This document shows positions 1,392 through 6,117 of a stretch of 64,000 nt of DNA, piece by piece; the stretch's first letter is position 1; every line of letters begins with the position of its first letter. Source of the stretch: Arachidicoccus rhizosphaerae (GTDB lineage: Bacteria > Bacteroidota > Bacteroidia > Chitinophagales > Chitinophagaceae). The stretch spans positions 62,001-126,000 of the forward strand of contig NZ_FNQY01000006.1 of NCBI RefSeq assembly GCF_900107765.1, read 5' to 3'. The notes under the pieces are model-generated. The model was not told the origin of the DNA. It saw only the letters and a list, made by a program, of their open reading frames with translations, and searched no databases. The translations under genes were made by a program, and so were the position numbers.

Positions 1392-3011
1392 ATGCATTTT
1401 TCGTTTTCTAATCATAAAAGACTGTCCTTTAGTGTCTTATCTGTACTTGTAATGTTTAGCCTTTGTCTTTTGGGGAATTCTTTGTTTGGGCAGTCAGGTC
1501 TTGATTTTAATATTCAGGATTTTGGTGCGGTGGGAGATGGCTTTACTTTAAACACCGAGGCCATTCAAAAGGCGGTTGACAAAGCCAGTCAGCGGGTGGC
1601 CACGGCAATGGAAGCGGGAGACAGAGACGCAAGAGCTACTGTAGTCTTTCCGGCAGGTAGCTACCTGAGCGGTACCCTTCAGTTAAAATCCAACGTGACG
1701 CTACATCTGGATAAAGGAGCGGTTTTACTGGGAAGTACGGATCCGAAGGACTATCACGCCCTTGACAGACCGGGGCATCCGGTCAGTCCCAAGCAGGACG
1801 ATAACTCTGCCATAGCTTTAATCGCGGCATTTAAAGCAGAAAACATTGGAATCACCGGCCCCGGGACTATTGACGGACAGGGGACAGCCCTGGCCCTGCA
1901 TATTGACAGCCTGATCCGTATTGGGCAAATGCAGGATCCTAATTATGCCAGGGGTGCGCTGCGGCCGAGTGAAACTTTACGCCCGAAACTCTTACTTTTC
2001 TCCCTTTGCAGGGACGTGCAACTCGAAGGCGCTACCCTGAAAAACTCCGCCTGCTGGGGACTTTCTTTTGAACTTTGCGAAAGGCTGCGGCTAAGTAAGC
2101 TTCAGGTCGTGAATATGGCTTATTGGAATAATGATGGCACCGATCTGACCGACTGTAAGAATGTCCGCATCACGGATTGTGAATTTAATACAGCTGATGA
2201 TGGTATCTGTTTAAAATCCTATTATCCGGGTCATGCCAATGACTCGTTTTATATTGCTGATTGCAGGGTCCGCTCCGGAGCCAGCGCCATTAAGTTCGGC
2301 ACGGCCTCTTACGGAGGATTTAAAAACATTAGCATACATAATATTGAAGTGTATGATACGTACAGGTCCGCTATTGCCATCGAGTCAGTCGATGGGGCTG
2401 CCATTGAAAATGTAAAGGTCACGGATATAACGGCCCGCAGTACTGGAAACGCAGTCTTTATCCGACTCGGTCACCGGGCGGGGGCGCAGCCGGGCAGTAT
2501 TAAAAATGTTTATATAGGCCATATTAAGGTACAGATTCCTTTTGGGAGGCCAGATATGGCCTATGACTTGAGGGCCACCGAACCCGGATTTCATAATACA
2601 TTTCCTGCTTCCATTACCGGGATCCCGGGGGCGGAGGTAGAAAATATTAAACTGGAGGATATAGAGATTACTTACCCCGGAAGAGCCTCCAGGGCTCAGG
2701 CGTATTTTTCCCTTAGCCGCCTGAGTGAATTCCCGGAAAAAGTACAAAACTATCCGGAATTCTCGATGTTTGGTGAGGTGCCGGCCTGGGGACTCTTTAT
2801 CCGTCATGCTAAAAATATTCAGCTCAGTAATATCCGTTTACAGCTGGCGGCGGATGATTTCAGGGCAGCCATAGTAATGGATGATGTAAACGGGGTTACG
2901 CTACATCAGATTAAGCTGCCCAAAGGGTATCACACGGGACAGATTCTGGTCAAAGATGGTAAAGAGGTTCAATTAAAGTCGTCGGATGGTTTAGCTATTG
3001 AAAGGCTTTAA
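1392..3011 (+). CDS. Secreted glycoside hydrolase family 28 (polygalacturonase-like)
   Basis: The 539-residue product begins with a Sec signal peptide (hydrophobic LSFSVLSVLVMFSLCLLG, cleavage probably after SLFG). Next comes the typical GH28 opening FNIQDFGAVGDGFTLNTEAIQKAV, then a right-handed beta-helix. Catalytic acids are visible as NDGTDLTD (residues about 247-254) and ADDGICLKS (about 268-276), corresponding to the NTD and DD motifs. The usual GHG motif is replaced by SGASAIKFG, as in many Bacteroidota members whose specificity is not polygalacturonate. It probably hydrolyses alpha-linked uronic acid or rhamnose-type linkages in the periplasm or outside the cell. It stands alone; the last 21 bases overlap the 3' end of the convergent WYL gene. 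Confidence 0.85.
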   Translation: MHFSFSNHKRLSFSVLSVLVMFSLCLLGNSLFGQSGLDFNIQDFGAVGDGFTLNTEAIQKAVDKASQRVATAMEAGDRDARATVVFPAGSYLSGTLQLKSNVTLHLDKGAVLLGSTDPKDYHALDRPGHPVSPKQDDNSAIALIAAFKAENIGITGPGTIDGQGTALALHIDSLIRIGQMQDPNYARGALRPSETLRPKLLLFSLCRDVQLEGATLKNSACWGLSFELCERLRLSKLQVVNMAYWNNDGTDLTDCKNVRITDCEFNTADDGICLKSYYPGHANDSFYIADCRVRSGASAIKFGTASYGGFKNISIHNIEVYDTYRSAIAIESVDGAAIENVKVTDITARSTGNAVFIRLGHRAGAQPGSIKNVYIGHIKVQIPFGRPDMAYDLRATEPGFHNTFPASITGIPGAEVENIKLEDIEITYPGRASRAQAYFSLSRLSEFPEKVQNYPEFSMFGEVPAWGLFIRHAKNIQLSNIRLQLAADDFRAAIVMDDVNGVTLHQIKLPKGYHTGQILVKDGKEVQLKSSDGLAIERL

Positions 3012-4037
3012 CGGTCCGTCAGGGGTAAGCGGATAATGATCCAGTGCTGCCTTTAATCTTTTTTGTATCCGGGTGGCCAAAGATTTAGGGGTAATGACCT
3101 GAACGGCTTCTCCCATTGCCAGTAGGTCTTTTTCCAGCTCAAAATTCAGTACTACATCTATTCTAAAGGTCGTTTGCTGCGGCTCCTTTTTTAATATTTG
3201 TTGAGAAGCATGTAACGGTTTTGTAACCAGATAAGGCGCATTGGCAGCATCCACGGTAAAAATAACTTTATGTGCCCTGTCGGCCTTACTTTTGGTGACT
3301 CCGATCAGATCACGATAATAGATGTCAAAGTCGACGCCTTCATATGGGTGAAAAACAAGTGCAGCGGCAGGTTGCACCTCTTTTATCCGGTCAAGGGCCA
3401 GATTTAGCAACTGATCGCCTTTCTGGCTGGCACAAATCAAAAACCACCGGTTTCTAAATTCTTTTAACAGGTACGGATGATAGTTCGCCAGGTGGGCTTC
3501 TTTTGCCTTAAAAGACTGATAGGTAATCCGGACAGGCTTTTTTTGCTGGATATATTGATATAATGGTGTGATAAATTGTAACCCTTTTACGCTGTCATTG
3601 CCTTCAAACTGAATATAGTTTTGTTGCTTATGGGTGGTCTTATGCAAATTGTTCTCCAGACGGGCAATAAGTTCACTGATATCTTCCAGGTAACTAAAAC
3701 CGTTGAATTGCTTTAATAAACCAATGACTTCTTTTAATTTTTCCACTTCTGAATCCGTTATCGGAGCATGGGTAATACTATAATCCGGCTGGGCGTAATA
3801 GTAATATTTACGATCTGATACTTCAATAGGGGCATTATACCCTAATTTATCACTGCGCATTATCTGGATATCATTTTGAATGGTTCGTTTACTCACGCCG
3901 TTTTCAATACCTTCTCTTTCATATAATACTTCGGAGACCTTGTCAATGAGGTCATCCAGCGTCCATTTGCGCACCTTATTGCGCAGGCAATCATCAATTG
4001 TTTTATACCGGATAAGGGCTAGTTTATTAAGTGCCAT
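2991..4037 (-). CDS. WYL-domain transcriptional regulator
   Basis: The 348-residue protein has an N-terminal winged-helix region (residues about 1-85, including the recognition segment VSKRTIQNDIQIMRSDKLGYNAPI). A middle helical linker follows, and then a WYL domain (about 165-260) with PVRITYQSF, YHPYLLKEFRNRWFLI and LALDRIKEV. A C-terminal WCX-type extension closes it (about 260-340). WYL proteins are ligand- or nucleic-acid-sensing regulators, often controlling stress, defence and RNA-repair genes. Divergent to it lies a long structured-RNA region and a slipin gene. Two copies of a palindrome between them are obvious candidate operators, so autoregulation plus control of the RNA/slipin unit is my inference. 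Its stop codon lies inside the end of the convergent GH28 gene. Confidence 0.9.
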   Translation of the reverse strand: MALNKLALIRYKTIDDCLRNKVRKWTLDDLIDKVSEVLYEREGIENGVSKRTIQNDIQIMRSDKLGYNAPIEVSDRKYYYYAQPDYSITHAPITDSEVEKLKEVIGLLKQFNGFSYLEDISELIARLENNLHKTTHKQQNYIQFEGNDSVKGLQFITPLYQYIQQKKPVRITYQSFKAKEAHLANYHPYLLKEFRNRWFLICASQKGDQLLNLALDRIKEVQPAAALVFHPYEGVDFDIYYRDLIGVTKSKADRAHKVIFTVDAANAPYLVTKPLHASQQILKKEPQQTTFRIDVVLNFELEKDLLAMGEAVQVITPKSLATRIQKRLKAALDHYPLTPDGPLKPFNS

Positions 4038-4084
4038 TAGGATCAGGGTTTATTTGTTGAGTAAGCTGGTGTAAATGTAATGCA

Positions 4085-4113
4085 TTCACTACGCAGTCTG
4101 GCTGCGTAGTGAA
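4085..4113. promoter_or_regulatory. Palindromic operator, copy 1 (WYL-proximal)
   Basis: A perfect 12-bp inverted repeat TTCACTACGCAG / CTGCGTAGTGAA with a 5-base spacer lies 48 bases upstream of the WYL start codon. The core ACTACGCAG-N5-CTGCGTAGT recurs at 4240-4262, which makes it a likely binding site for a dimeric regulator, most plausibly the WYL protein. Confidence 0.7.
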
Positions 4114-4239
4114 GTAATTAAAGGTAAGCGACAAAACCCGCGACCGATTTATTTGGATAAAAGCTATCTGGTGTTTTAGTTGTTATCTGTAAATCAATCT
4201 CTTATAGTGCATCTGAAAATTTTTTTAAAAATTATTTTT

Positions 4240-4262
4240 ACTACGCAGATTCACTGCGTAGT
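4240..4262. promoter_or_regulatory. Palindromic operator, copy 2 (RNA/slipin-proximal)
   Basis: ACTACGCAG-ATTCA-CTGCGTAGT is a 9-bp perfect inverted repeat with the same core and spacer length as copy 1. The spacer sequences differ, so the arms have been conserved specifically. It lies just upstream of a possible -7 box (CATCTTTG, 4271-4278), which would place the operator over the -33 region of a plus-strand promoter. Confidence 0.7.
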
Positions 4263-4270
4263 CCCACATG

Positions 4271-4278
4271 CATCTTTG
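4271..4278 (+). promoter_or_regulatory. Possible -7 element for the RNA/slipin transcript
   Basis: CATCTTTG differs from the Bacteroidota TANNTTTG box at one position. No TTG is present at -33, where operator copy 2 sits, so a regulator-dependent promoter is plausible. Transcription would start near 4285, leaving a leader of about 650 bases before the slipin start codon. Confidence 0.3.
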
Positions 4279-4336
4279 TGCTGTCCTTTAAAGACGTGAT
4301 GCGTGTATGTTTTTACTGGTATTTGTTCCAGGGAAT

Positions 4337-4577
4337 GCACCCGTTGTAGTCATTCGTATCCTTTCGCTGGATATTCGAACGGGCTATCCAGCTTTTCGGG
4401 ACGGTGTTTATGAGTCACCTTTTACTCATATCCACGGGTTCGAATCCCACATTGTTGTTTCAAGCAATGAACGCTAATTGGTAGGCGAAATAGTATTGTA
4501 GTTACTATTTATGAATGAGAAGTTTTAGGGCGATTCTTCAAAAAAAGAGCCCACCAGGTAGTATTAAACGGGGGTGC
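4337..4577 (+). ncRNA. Structured RNA module with tRNA-like core (Y-RNA-like candidate)
   Basis: A closing stem pairs GCACCCGTT (4337-4345) with AAC and GGGTGC (4567-4577), leaving two bulged G residues. Inside are an 8-bp hairpin (GCTGGATA 4366-4373 / TATCCAGC 4385-4392) and a 7-bp hairpin (TATGAGT 4409-4415 / ACTCATA 4424-4430). Next comes a T-arm-like element GGG-TTCGAAT-CCC (4436-4448). An acceptor-like helix CATTG 4450-4454 / CAATG 4465-4469 follows. A D-arm-like GCT-AATTGGTA-GGC (4473-4486) is next. Last is an 8-bp stem (4488-4495 / 4503-4510) with a 7-base loop TTGTAGT that looks like an anticodon loop reading GTA. The order T-arm, acceptor, D-arm is that of a circularly permuted tRNA. 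Bacterial Y RNAs are known to carry a tRNA-mimicking module. The base pairing is seen directly; the RNA's existence and role are inference. Confidence 0.5.
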
Positions 4578-4583
4578 GCTTTA

Positions 4584-4693
4584 CCGGTTACCTGTTGTTC
4601 TTTCAAGAGATTTTAGCCAGTTGGCTGGCAGGTAAAAGCTGTACGCAGTGATACGGCTGCCAACCAGGCTACCTTGTAAAAGAGAGGTAACGG
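4584..4693 (+). ncRNA. Second structured RNA module
   Basis: CCGGTTACC (4584-4592) can pair with GGTAACGG (4686-4693), giving 8 bp with one bulged G. Inside are GCCAG-TTGG-CTGGC (4616-4629), with a D-loop-like TTGG, and a 7-bp hairpin AGCTGTA / TACGGCT (4637-4643 / 4652-4658). GCCAAC (4659-4664) could alternatively pair with GTTGGC (4620-4625). It starts 6 bases after the first module and, like it, is closed by a bulged stem, suggesting a second, more diverged copy of the same kind of element. Confidence 0.35.
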
Positions 4694-4732
4694 AAGCCTT
4701 GCAGGGCTTGTAAACCTGTTATATTAAGATAA

Positions 4733-4778
4733 GTGTCTGCAGTTCAACCGGCGGTCATGACGCGCCTGGTTGCTGCCT
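4733..4778 (+). ncRNA. Long bulged hairpin in the slipin leader
   Basis: GCAG, CAACC and GGCG pair in order with CGCC, GGTTG and CTGC, forming a 13-bp stem interrupted only by small bulges around a 9-base loop. A CTGCC just after it can also pair with GGCAG near 4799. There is no following T-run, so this is not an ordinary terminator. A smaller hairpin (CCGC-AAC-GCGG, near 4868) follows before the slipin gene. Confidence 0.35.
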
Positions 4779-4934
4779 CGACTTTCTGAAAAAGGCGGTG
4801 GCAGTTTCCAGGTAAATAGAGATCCTGATCAACGGTTAACTAAGACTGATTTTAAATGACTTGTTTCCGCAACGCGGGGTTAGAAGCGTATCCTGGTTTA
4901 AAACAAATTGTATAAAAGATTAAAATGTAGGATC

Positions 4935-6032
4935 ATGAAAAAGTTGAAAATAGCCTCCTATCAGGTGGGGCTTGTGTTTAAGGCAAAAGAATTGCAGGGT
5001 GTTTTGCCCTGTGGCACTCATTATATCTGGGGAGATAAACAGGTGGAAGTACACAACAAAAAAGGCGCCTTTAAAAGCGCAGTTTTAGATAAGGAGCTGC
5101 TGTTGGAAAATGAAGAGCTGGCAGCTATGGTAGAAAGGATTCAGGTCGGGGATGGTGAATTACAGTTATTATTTGAAGATGGAATTTTTCTTCAGGTACT
5201 TCCCGTTGGTAAATATGCCTTCTGGAAAGAATCCGTGAAAAGAACATTTCTAAAGGTGAATCTGGAAGATCTGTATGTGGATACTTCCATAAACAGGGCC
5301 GTTTTGGAAACGCCTCAGATAAAACCTTATATCAGAAAGCTGGCTGTTCCCCAACAACGCAAAGGACTGTTATTTGTGGAGGGTAAATTTGTGGAACTGT
5401 TGGAAGCCGGCAGCTATTACTACTGGCAAAGCAGCAAACAACTGGAATTGAAGACCATTGATTACCGAATCCAGCAAATGGAAATATCAGGACAGGAGTT
5501 GTTGTCTAAGGATAAGGCAACGCTTAGAGTGAGCTTTTTTATTCAGTATGAGGTGGTTGACTTAATAAAAGCGGTTACGGTCAGTAAAGATTATGAGAAA
5601 CAGTTGTATCTGACGGTTCAATTAGTCTTACGATCCTTTATAGGTGCCCTGTCCCTGGATGAATTACTGGGCAGAAAAGATACGGCCGGACAGGAGCTGT
5701 TGGAGACGCTGGCTGCAAAATCAACGCCTTTCGGGGTCCGCATTCTGGATGCAGGTATCCGGGATGTGATATTAACCGGAGAGATGAAAAATATAATGCA
5801 TCAGGTATTGGAGGCAGAAAAGCAGGCGGAGGCCAATAGCATTATGCGAAGGGAGGAGACTGCTGCCACCAGAAGCATGCTGAATACTGCTAAGATGATG
5901 GAAAACAATAGCATCCTGTGGAAACTAAAGGAAATGGAGTATATAGAAAGGATTGCGGATAAAATCGGCACCATTTCTCTGTCTGGTAACAGTAGTATGA
6001 TTACCCAGCTAAAAGAAATTTTCGTCAAGTAA
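4935..6032 (+). CDS. Slipin (SPFH/band-7 family) protein
   Basis: The ATG at 4935 gives 365 residues (a TTG nine codons upstream is less likely). The protein has no signal peptide. A duplicated N-terminal domain shows matching pieces: LQGVLPCGTHYIWG, FLQVLPVGKYAFWKE and FVELLEAGSYYYW. The SPFH core follows (about 170-300: DKATLRVSFFIQYEVVDLIKAV, LVLRSFIGALSLDELLG, FGVRILDAGIRDVIL). The C-terminal coiled coil is EAEKQAEANSIMRREETAATRSML. Slipins form membrane-associated oligomers. Variants with this soluble N-terminal extension are known from RNA-repair neighbourhoods beside RtcB and WYL or RtcR regulators (recalled, not checked). Here it is preceded by a structured RNA region and WYL operators and followed by a strong terminator. 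No RtcB gene accompanies it. Confidence 0.85.
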   Translation: MKKLKIASYQVGLVFKAKELQGVLPCGTHYIWGDKQVEVHNKKGAFKSAVLDKELLLENEELAAMVERIQVGDGELQLLFEDGIFLQVLPVGKYAFWKESVKRTFLKVNLEDLYVDTSINRAVLETPQIKPYIRKLAVPQQRKGLLFVEGKFVELLEAGSYYYWQSSKQLELKTIDYRIQQMEISGQELLSKDKATLRVSFFIQYEVVDLIKAVTVSKDYEKQLYLTVQLVLRSFIGALSLDELLGRKDTAGQELLETLAAKSTPFGVRILDAGIRDVILTGEMKNIMHQVLEAEKQAEANSIMRREETAATRSMLNTAKMMENNSILWKLKEMEYIERIADKIGTISLSGNSSMITQLKEIFVK

Positions 6033-6076: not shown

Positions 6077-6117
6077 AACCGGGTAATTTTCTGGAGTTCA
6101 GTTAATTACCCGGTTTT
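6077..6117 (+). terminator. Strong terminator after slipin
   Basis: A 12-bp perfect inverted repeat (AACCGGGTAATT / AATTACCCGGTT) ends in a short T-run. It closes the RNA/slipin transcription unit. Confidence 0.8.

Follow-up and report, generated by a model that had tools for sequence, protein, structure and literature searches.

What kind of RNA separates the gene of a WYL-domain regulator from a slipin gene in Arachidicoccus rhizosphaerae, and what may such a locus do in a genome in which the ligase RtcB is not found? The question is raised by a 64,000-nt stretch of contig NZ_FNQY01000006.1 (positions 62,001 to 126,000; assembly GCF_900107765.1), hereafter the window. The WYL gene (2991–4037, minus strand, 348 aa) reads away from the RNA, and its product exceeds the Pfam cut-offs for the WYL (PF13280, E = 2e-12) and WCX (PF25583, E = 1e-8) families, with E = 2e-20 against the WYL models of PADLOC. 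The slipin/SPFH gene (4935–6029, plus strand, 365 aa; PF01145, E = 1.7e-25) is preceded by a structured leader of approximately 650 nt, and two 26-nt palindromes (4085–4110 and 4237–4262) are situated between both genes. These elements had been named in a preliminary description of the locus and are borne out by Pfam, repeat, and folding evidence. The same description had noted the lack of RtcB from the module and proposed a search for rtcB and Ro genes elsewhere; neither RtcB nor a TROVE/Ro protein was found anywhere in the host genome (4.87 Mb, stated completeness 99.99%). Going beyond that description, we read the leader RNA, from its sequence, as a permuted tRNA mimic, and find that the palindromes represent a conserved operator.

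The leader region (4237–4940) has a folding z-score of −4.38, and none of 20 shuffled sequences folded equally well. On the plus strand, a T-arm sequence (GGGTTCGAATCCC; 4436–4448, 3-bp stem) is followed by a closed acceptor-like hairpin of 7 bp (4450–4469), a D-arm-like hairpin (4472–4487), and an anticodon-like arm with the 7-nt loop TTGTAGT that was retrieved by an arm search (4491–4507). This order corresponds to a tRNA that has been opened and then sealed again at the acceptor end, i.e., to a circularly permuted mimic consisting of one unit (4433–4545), which is delimited by predicted folds and by a match to covariance model R1. Although built without the window sequence, R1 matches it with 23 bits (E = 2e-4 in 147 kb). 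Adjacent to the anticodon-like arm, a template search predicts an H-type pseudoknot (4517–4552), in which GAGAA (4517–4521) pairs with TTCTT (4534–4538) and GGGC (4528–4531) with GCCC (4549–4552); a pseudoknot with altered pairs is present in all three congeners. The RNA does not qualify as a tRNA gene, since ARAGORN calls no tRNA in the window and the acceptor end is closed by a hairpin loop. Neither curated nor lax thresholds gave a credible Rfam match in the gap, and two weak ones (E = 4.7 and 7.5) are chance-like. The reading of the gap as tmRNA was dropped for want of a match in the Rfam and ARAGORN scans, and that as a T-box of the known family for want of an Rfam T-box match.

Relatives were collected from 30 slipin loci of the same family and 80 loci of a wider set, nearly all of them from Bacteroidota, and the T-arm motif was observed upstream of slipin in 30 out of 30 and 80 out of 80 cases, respectively. 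Two of the 80 loci, L092 and L095, were excluded from the RNA set used below due to the absence of the tandem motif at its usual place. Locus L096, a duplicate of L007, was counted in the tallies of flanks and operators (112 loci) and of tandem motifs (108 loci), and omitted from the analyses of anticodon arms, pseudoknots, and TTTG spacing. A tandem pair of T-arms is present in 95 of the 108 loci (one duplicate among the 108). Unit 1 usually comprises a short anticodon-stem strand, a variable loop, the T-arm, the closed acceptor hairpin, U8-A9, the D-arm, and the second anticodon-stem strand; its outer stem was read from a 24-sequence alignment and stands outside the separate pair counts. Unit 2 usually comprises the T-arm, a closed acceptor hairpin, the D-arm, and a closed anticodon-like arm, and is often followed by an H-type pseudoknot.

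Covariation was assessed in an alignment of 84 of the 108 loci, which have distinct two-unit sequences and a T-arm spacing of 55–76 nt. Paired cells amount to 92.0%, compared to 68.6% in shuffled alignments and 38–49% if the pairing partners are slid. Two-sided changes were observed in 598 cells (193 shuffled) and affect 24 of 28 pairs (21.6 in shuffles), and RNAalifold alone proposes 19 pairs, 15 of them with compensatory change. The pseudoknot template was matched in 64 of 108 regions, whereas 25 shuffled sets reached 6.4 on average and 12 at most. The leader is, by this comparison, a member of a conserved RNA whose structure is backed by covariation in the relatives. Conservation of the gap, with covariation, had been named in the preliminary description as a point on which its proposal could fail, and the 84-sequence alignment gives no such failure.

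An anticodon-like arm (5 bp, 7-nt loop) begins 44–69 nt past the last T-loop motif in 92 of 107 loci. Among the 60 distinct arms, U33 occurs in 51, R37 in 55, and both in 47, compared to a mean of 8.6 arms in composition-shuffled regions, 1.2 of which possess both residues. The 47 arms with U33 and R37 spell 25 different anticodons; the loci are related and the events not independent. Arms that keep the loop rules of tRNA while varying in identity provide a testable claim on the cellular contacts of the RNA. Several loci of Flavobacteriales (e.g., L033, L039, L059, L062, and L086) contain a second anticodon-like arm.

Among the 147 genomes of the family, the top 21 matches of R1 (75–103 bits) are all located directly upstream of a slipin gene, but since all 21 went into the model they do not represent an independent test. 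The next matches (37–67 bits) comprise other slipin-linked RNAs, probable pairs of tRNA genes, and some RNAs beside Ro/TROVE genes. In at least 10 of 13 Ro genomes, among the matches listed, R1 matches within 2 kb of the Ro gene. Five of these ten genomes exceed 50 bits, and the other five, with scores like those of tRNA pairs, were credited by place and length. The model thus probably also detects Y RNAs, as which the matches beside Ro genes are probably to be classified. Matches that score below about 50 bits and are remote from any slipin, Ro, or RtcB gene resemble ordinary tRNA genes lying side by side (145–200 nt) and were left uncounted. Two R1 matches, G085 C1:6577596-6577724 and G089 C4:129256-129376, are situated by RtcB with neither slipin nor Ro there.

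The palindromes share the core TACGCA-N7-TGCGTA, which is located near the start of the WYL gene in operator 1 (4090–4108) and precedes the predicted RNA promoter in operator 2 (4242–4260). With up to one mismatch, the core occurs twice in the 64 kb, compared to 0.02 expected occurrences. Across the 4.87-Mb genome, TRCGCA-N7-TGCGYA retrieved operators 1 and 2 only, and due to this restriction the regulator looks dedicated; autoregulation of the WYL gene through operator 1 is probable. Downstream of operator 2, CATCTTTG (4271–4278, plus strand) is a candidate −7 element according to what we take to be the promoter consensus of Bacteroidota. The 5' end of the RNA would correspond to a predicted transcription start near 4286. 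Two congeners likewise have CATCTTTG or CAACTTTG 10 nt downstream of their second palindrome, and three congeners keep the WYL gene, both palindromes (with changes), and the promoter spacing. The motif TGCGCA-N6-TGCGCA was also observed in the WYL coding start (−940 of the slipin open reading frame) and likewise in congeners G018 and G193, where it may reflect coding constraint or a third site.

A generalised operator (TRYGCA-N7-TGCRYA, spacer 6–8) was scanned for at −1000 to −250 of slipin and detected in 59 of 112 loci. The 65 sites in 83 kb, compared to 26 sites in 1,149 kb of remaining locus DNA, correspond to an enrichment of approximately 35-fold before slipin. Where a flank encodes a WYL relative, the operator is present with a single exception (18 out of 19 loci), and many loci without such a relative have it as well. 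TTTG begins 13–14 nt past the last operator in 55 of the 59 loci with a site; 46 further TTTG are scattered over the same 50 nt, with minor peaks at 5–6 and 40–46 nt. The constant distance is compatible with a repressor that binds between the Bacteroidota promoter elements. Of 20 rtcB regions, 7 are situated at 2.4–22 kb from slipin and 13 on another contig or approximately 1 Mb away; an operator precedes rtcB in 5 of the former and in none of the latter. A neighbouring rtcB may therefore share control with the slipin locus, and control of rtcB in trans, as part of a regulon, was rejected on this sample. As a handle, the operator lends itself to locating regulated genes in other Bacteroidota.

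Within the family, RtcB is encoded in 30 of 32 genomes with a strong slipin match and in 40 of 115 without (p = 8e-10), where the 32 include two genomes (G067 and G071) whose slipin frame carries a stop. The two genomes with slipin and without RtcB are those of the window and of congener G018. In the genus (six genomes), slipin occurs in three and RtcB in two, with an overlap in one. The preliminary description had contrasted the locus, as one without rtcB, with known RNA-repair operons; a separation of rtcB from slipin is in fact common: RtcB was observed in the flanks of only 32 of the 112 loci (a WYL relative in 19), yet somewhere in 41 of the 46 slipin genomes searched in the wider set (of 48; completeness not stated). 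Distant members can escape the profiles used on the flanks, whose seeds were one WYL protein and four RtcB proteins. The five genomes of the wider set without an RtcB match keep slipin and RNA, and one of them, Proteiniphilum acetatigenes, has the order WYL–RNA–slipin. The earlier idea of a reduced system associated with RNA repair is in good agreement with the link between slipin and RtcB, the covarying gap, the absence of RtcB and Ro here, and the presence of another RNA ligase elsewhere in the genome.

This ligase (PF09414, 435 aa; L181:1426-2733) is encoded on contig C31 and adjoined by the gene of a phosphoesterase-like protein (L181:716-1270), which was assigned to no Pfam family and is 29% identical to a Chryseobacterium protein encoded upstream of slipin. 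Both genes possibly form a separate RNA-repair cassette. The ligase is present in every genus member that has slipin (three of three) and absent from the others (none of three), and this distribution over six genomes is suggestive of a ligase that follows slipin in the genus. PF09414 is not rare, since the model also matches 6 of 14 control genomes.

A scan of 34 loci for tRNA genes revealed at least one in 19 loci, up to 18 (L133), and at least two in 15. In 14 of these 15 loci, the tRNA genes precede the RNA and share its strand. Arrays of 9–18 tRNA genes upstream of mimic and slipin were found at L133:8333-10011, L102:1602-2757, L127:2139-3643, and L099:1497-2672; no tRNA genes are located near the slipin of G018 (L123). 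At the family loci L126, L139, and L151, the gene of an RNase H-like protein (PF04308) adjoins the mimic RNA on its upstream side.

The SPFH domain of the window slipin was recovered by Pfam, sequence, and fold searches. Its sequence match to stomatin starts at residue 134 only, and residues 1–133 are unmatched. Stomatin-like slipins possess an N-terminal membrane hairpin. The window slipin has neither such a hairpin nor any other transmembrane stretch (maximum 19-residue hydropathy 1.31), and 4 of 27 relatives exceed a hydropathy of 1.6, at residue 52 or about 260. An AlphaFold2 monomer model (pLDDT 79, pTM 0.57) shows three similar N-terminal beta repeats of five strands each and the SPFH domain, and ends in a long helix that is modelled with low confidence. 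In the Foldseek search stomatin and HflK/C came first and the major vault protein (MVP) at rank 26 (E = 2e-8, low TM-score); the alignments to MVP span approximately 400 columns with gaps, so that cover of the N-terminal repeats is unproven. The slipin frame is intact, with 60–61% identity between congeners. L003 was left out of the slipin alignment due to an internal stop. Several slipins of Chryseobacterium (L078, L079, L082, L084-L087, and L089) contain extra sequence, with approximately 504 aa compared to the usual 365 aa. A phage origin of slipin was rejected, as no slipin relative is encoded in any of 73 candidate viral stretches.

Further elements surround the mimic on the plus strand. 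The hairpin GCTGGATA...TATCCAGC (4366–4392) occupies, in sequence comparison, the place of unit 1 in most relatives, and a predicted hairpin ATGAGT...ACTCAT (4410–4429) immediately precedes the T-arm. The 3' part of the leader (about 4553–4934) is strongly folded in the window genome (z = −5.8, 12 shuffles), whereas the same stretch of congener G018 has a z-score of 0.0. Downstream of slipin, where the preliminary description had placed a strong terminator, an inverted repeat with 17-nt arms (6077–6115, 88% complementary) is followed by T-rich DNA. The hairpin as such is thus present, but it is not among the calls of a consensus terminator scan, and we retain it as a possible terminator.

Taking these observations together, we lean slightly towards reading the module as a response to tRNA damage or translation stress that is composed of regulator, mimic, and SPFH scaffold and is reduced here by the loss of RtcB. 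The WYL protein, bound to the two palindromes, would repress its own gene as well as the promoter before the RNA, and would be released by a signal of disturbed translation or damaged tRNA. The released promoter would then give rise to a transcript with the permuted mimic first and the SPFH mRNA second, and the SPFH protein would assemble into a ring or cage around the mimic. Due to its closed acceptor end the mimic cannot be charged. It would be shown, with its elbow and anticodon arms, to enzymes that act on tRNA, and could either soak up or report anticodon nucleases or draw repair enzymes to broken tRNAs. In relatives, where RtcB and tRNA genes often join the unit, the tRNA genes could replace lost tRNAs; in the genome of the window, the PF09414 ligase may stand in for the absent RtcB. 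It is tempting to speculate further on a bacterial mini-vault, in which an SPFH protein that carries MVP-like repeats and no membrane anchor would cage the mimic, an exchangeable anticodon arm would bait anticodon nucleases, and in this genus the PF09414 ligase would seal the breaks without RtcB, a scenario to which we assign little likelihood.

A number of observations weigh against the stress-response reading. The mimic of the window is weak, with three pairs in the T-stem, no unit 1, an R1 score of 23 bits, and AA in place of the U8-A9 of the relatives. In congener G018 the RNA likewise consists of a single unit (26 bits) and its anticodon-like loop counts 6 nt, and congener G193 has lost the T-loop consensus while retaining anticodon-like arm and pseudoknot; such divergent copies speak against full tRNA-elbow function here. 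Both loci excluded above, L092 and L095, encode a slipin without tandem mimic RNA and exhibit the T-arm motif only at about −55. In unit 2, only about 75% of the cells are paired in the acceptor helix and the D helix, for which the alignment is perhaps part of the cause; the pseudoknot template is unmatched in 44 of 108 regions, and the strict operator was not found in 53 of 112 slipin loci. With no operator at the 13 distant rtcB genes, trans control of rtcB is unsupported. As for the ligase, its link to slipin comes from six genomes only, its gene is devoid of such an operator, and among the other slipin loci examined none has a PF09414 ligase near slipin.

The RNA nearly always lies directly upstream of slipin and in the same orientation, which would also suit a leader that acts in cis: its tRNA-like fold would respond to a tRNA-binding protein or to tRNA in free, damaged, or modified form and thereby set transcription or translation of slipin, similar to a T-box but differently built. 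A stretch of 222–427 nt, often well folded, between the RNA and the slipin start codon in 21 selected loci points in the same direction. Neither a T-box nor another Rfam family was found, however, the identity of the anticodon is not fixed, and the matches of R1 beside Ro and RtcB genes fit an RNA acting in trans; we regard cis control as rather unlikely. Native-like loops with 25 anticodons at one and the same place look as if they were tracking changing nucleases, and the RNA might be a decoy only, baiting anticodon nucleases while slipin just stabilises or places it and no repair takes place. RtcB can indeed be absent, and a decoy function was raised for YrlA by Hughes et al., in passages of PMC7790460. 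The strong co-occurrence with RtcB and the tRNA genes upstream in relatives are at odds with a system devoid of repair, and a pure decoy appears doubtful to us.

Given the weak T-arm and the absence of RtcB and unit 1 in the window, the absence of slipin from three of six genus members, and the lost T-loop of G193, the locus might also be the decaying remnant of a repair system that crumbles in the genus while its RNA is being lost. Against such a decay, the slipin frame is whole and shares 60–61% identity between congeners; furthermore, WYL gene, palindromes, and promoter spacing persist in three congeners, and a pseudoknot is kept there with changed pairs. We consider a mere remnant quite improbable.

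Slipins and Y RNAs are companions of RNA-repair ligases. Understood as a reduced stress-response module, the locus offers a natural case in which regulator, RNA, and slipin persist in the absence of RtcB, which separates their function from ligation by RtcB and invites the question of what scaffold and mimic do alone. The SPFH model, in addition, raises a possible link to vaults.

As regards known systems, a tRNA-like module as in Y RNAs of YrlA type is clear in the relatives and weak in the window, where no Rfam match was obtained. The RNAs of the slipin relatives differ from YrlA in their tandem arrangement of two mimics, in an anticodon-like arm, and often in a pseudoknot. Furthermore, the Ro/Rsr partner of YrlA-type Y RNAs is missing here, and the partner is an SPFH protein instead. 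Common to both is a tRNA-mimic RNA in an RNA-repair setting, as described for YrlA and the rsr-yrlBA-rtcBA operon in parts of PMC7790460.

In Anabaena, according to portions of PMC10272220, a repressor other than RtcR silences an array of 26 tRNAs, rtcB, and a slipin-family gene, all of which are raised by chloramphenicol. The trn operon and TrcR regulon thus share with the loci described here the placement of tRNA array, rtcB, and slipin-family gene under one repressor, and the tRNA arrays upstream of the mimic in the family and its relatives resemble the trn operon. The repressor is a different one, and the terms 'WYL' and 'tRNA-like' are absent from the main text of that paper. Within the compass of these passages, the Anabaena regulon and the work of Hughes et al. 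lend support to the stress-module reading without showing it.

In the major vault protein, nine beta repeats are followed by an SPFH-like shoulder and by cap helices (PMC13347060). Vault and slipin have in common the succession of beta repeats, SPFH-like shoulder, and long helix, as well as a small RNA that is associated with the cage in the one case and would be in the other; MVP is among the fold matches. Different from the vault, the slipin has three repeats rather than nine, TM-scores are low, the RNA is not vault RNA, and the model is that of a monomer only. The window slipin might form a vault-like cage.

The literature search, outside of which a paper of 2016 by Burroughs and Aravind lies, yielded no paper recognised as describing a slipin-linked RNA, and absence from print is not claimed. 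In that paper, SPFH/Band-7 proteins with a novel tRNA-like RNA are reportedly named as RNA-repair scaffolds, and slipin with a tRNA-like RNA as such is already known. Those systems are said to share with the present one a Band-7 protein and its cognate tRNA-like RNA in an RNA-repair setting. A Band-7/SPFH gene next to a tRNA-like RNA is indeed found here, the RNA being divergent in the window (23 bits) and strong in the relatives. As to an RtcB or ATP-grasp ligase, RtcB is absent and a PF09414 ligase is encoded elsewhere, with co-occurrence in six genomes only. Compared to the systems reported by Burroughs and Aravind, the window would represent a variant, characterised by a genome without RtcB, a dedicated WYL regulator with its operator, and an RNA of one unit.

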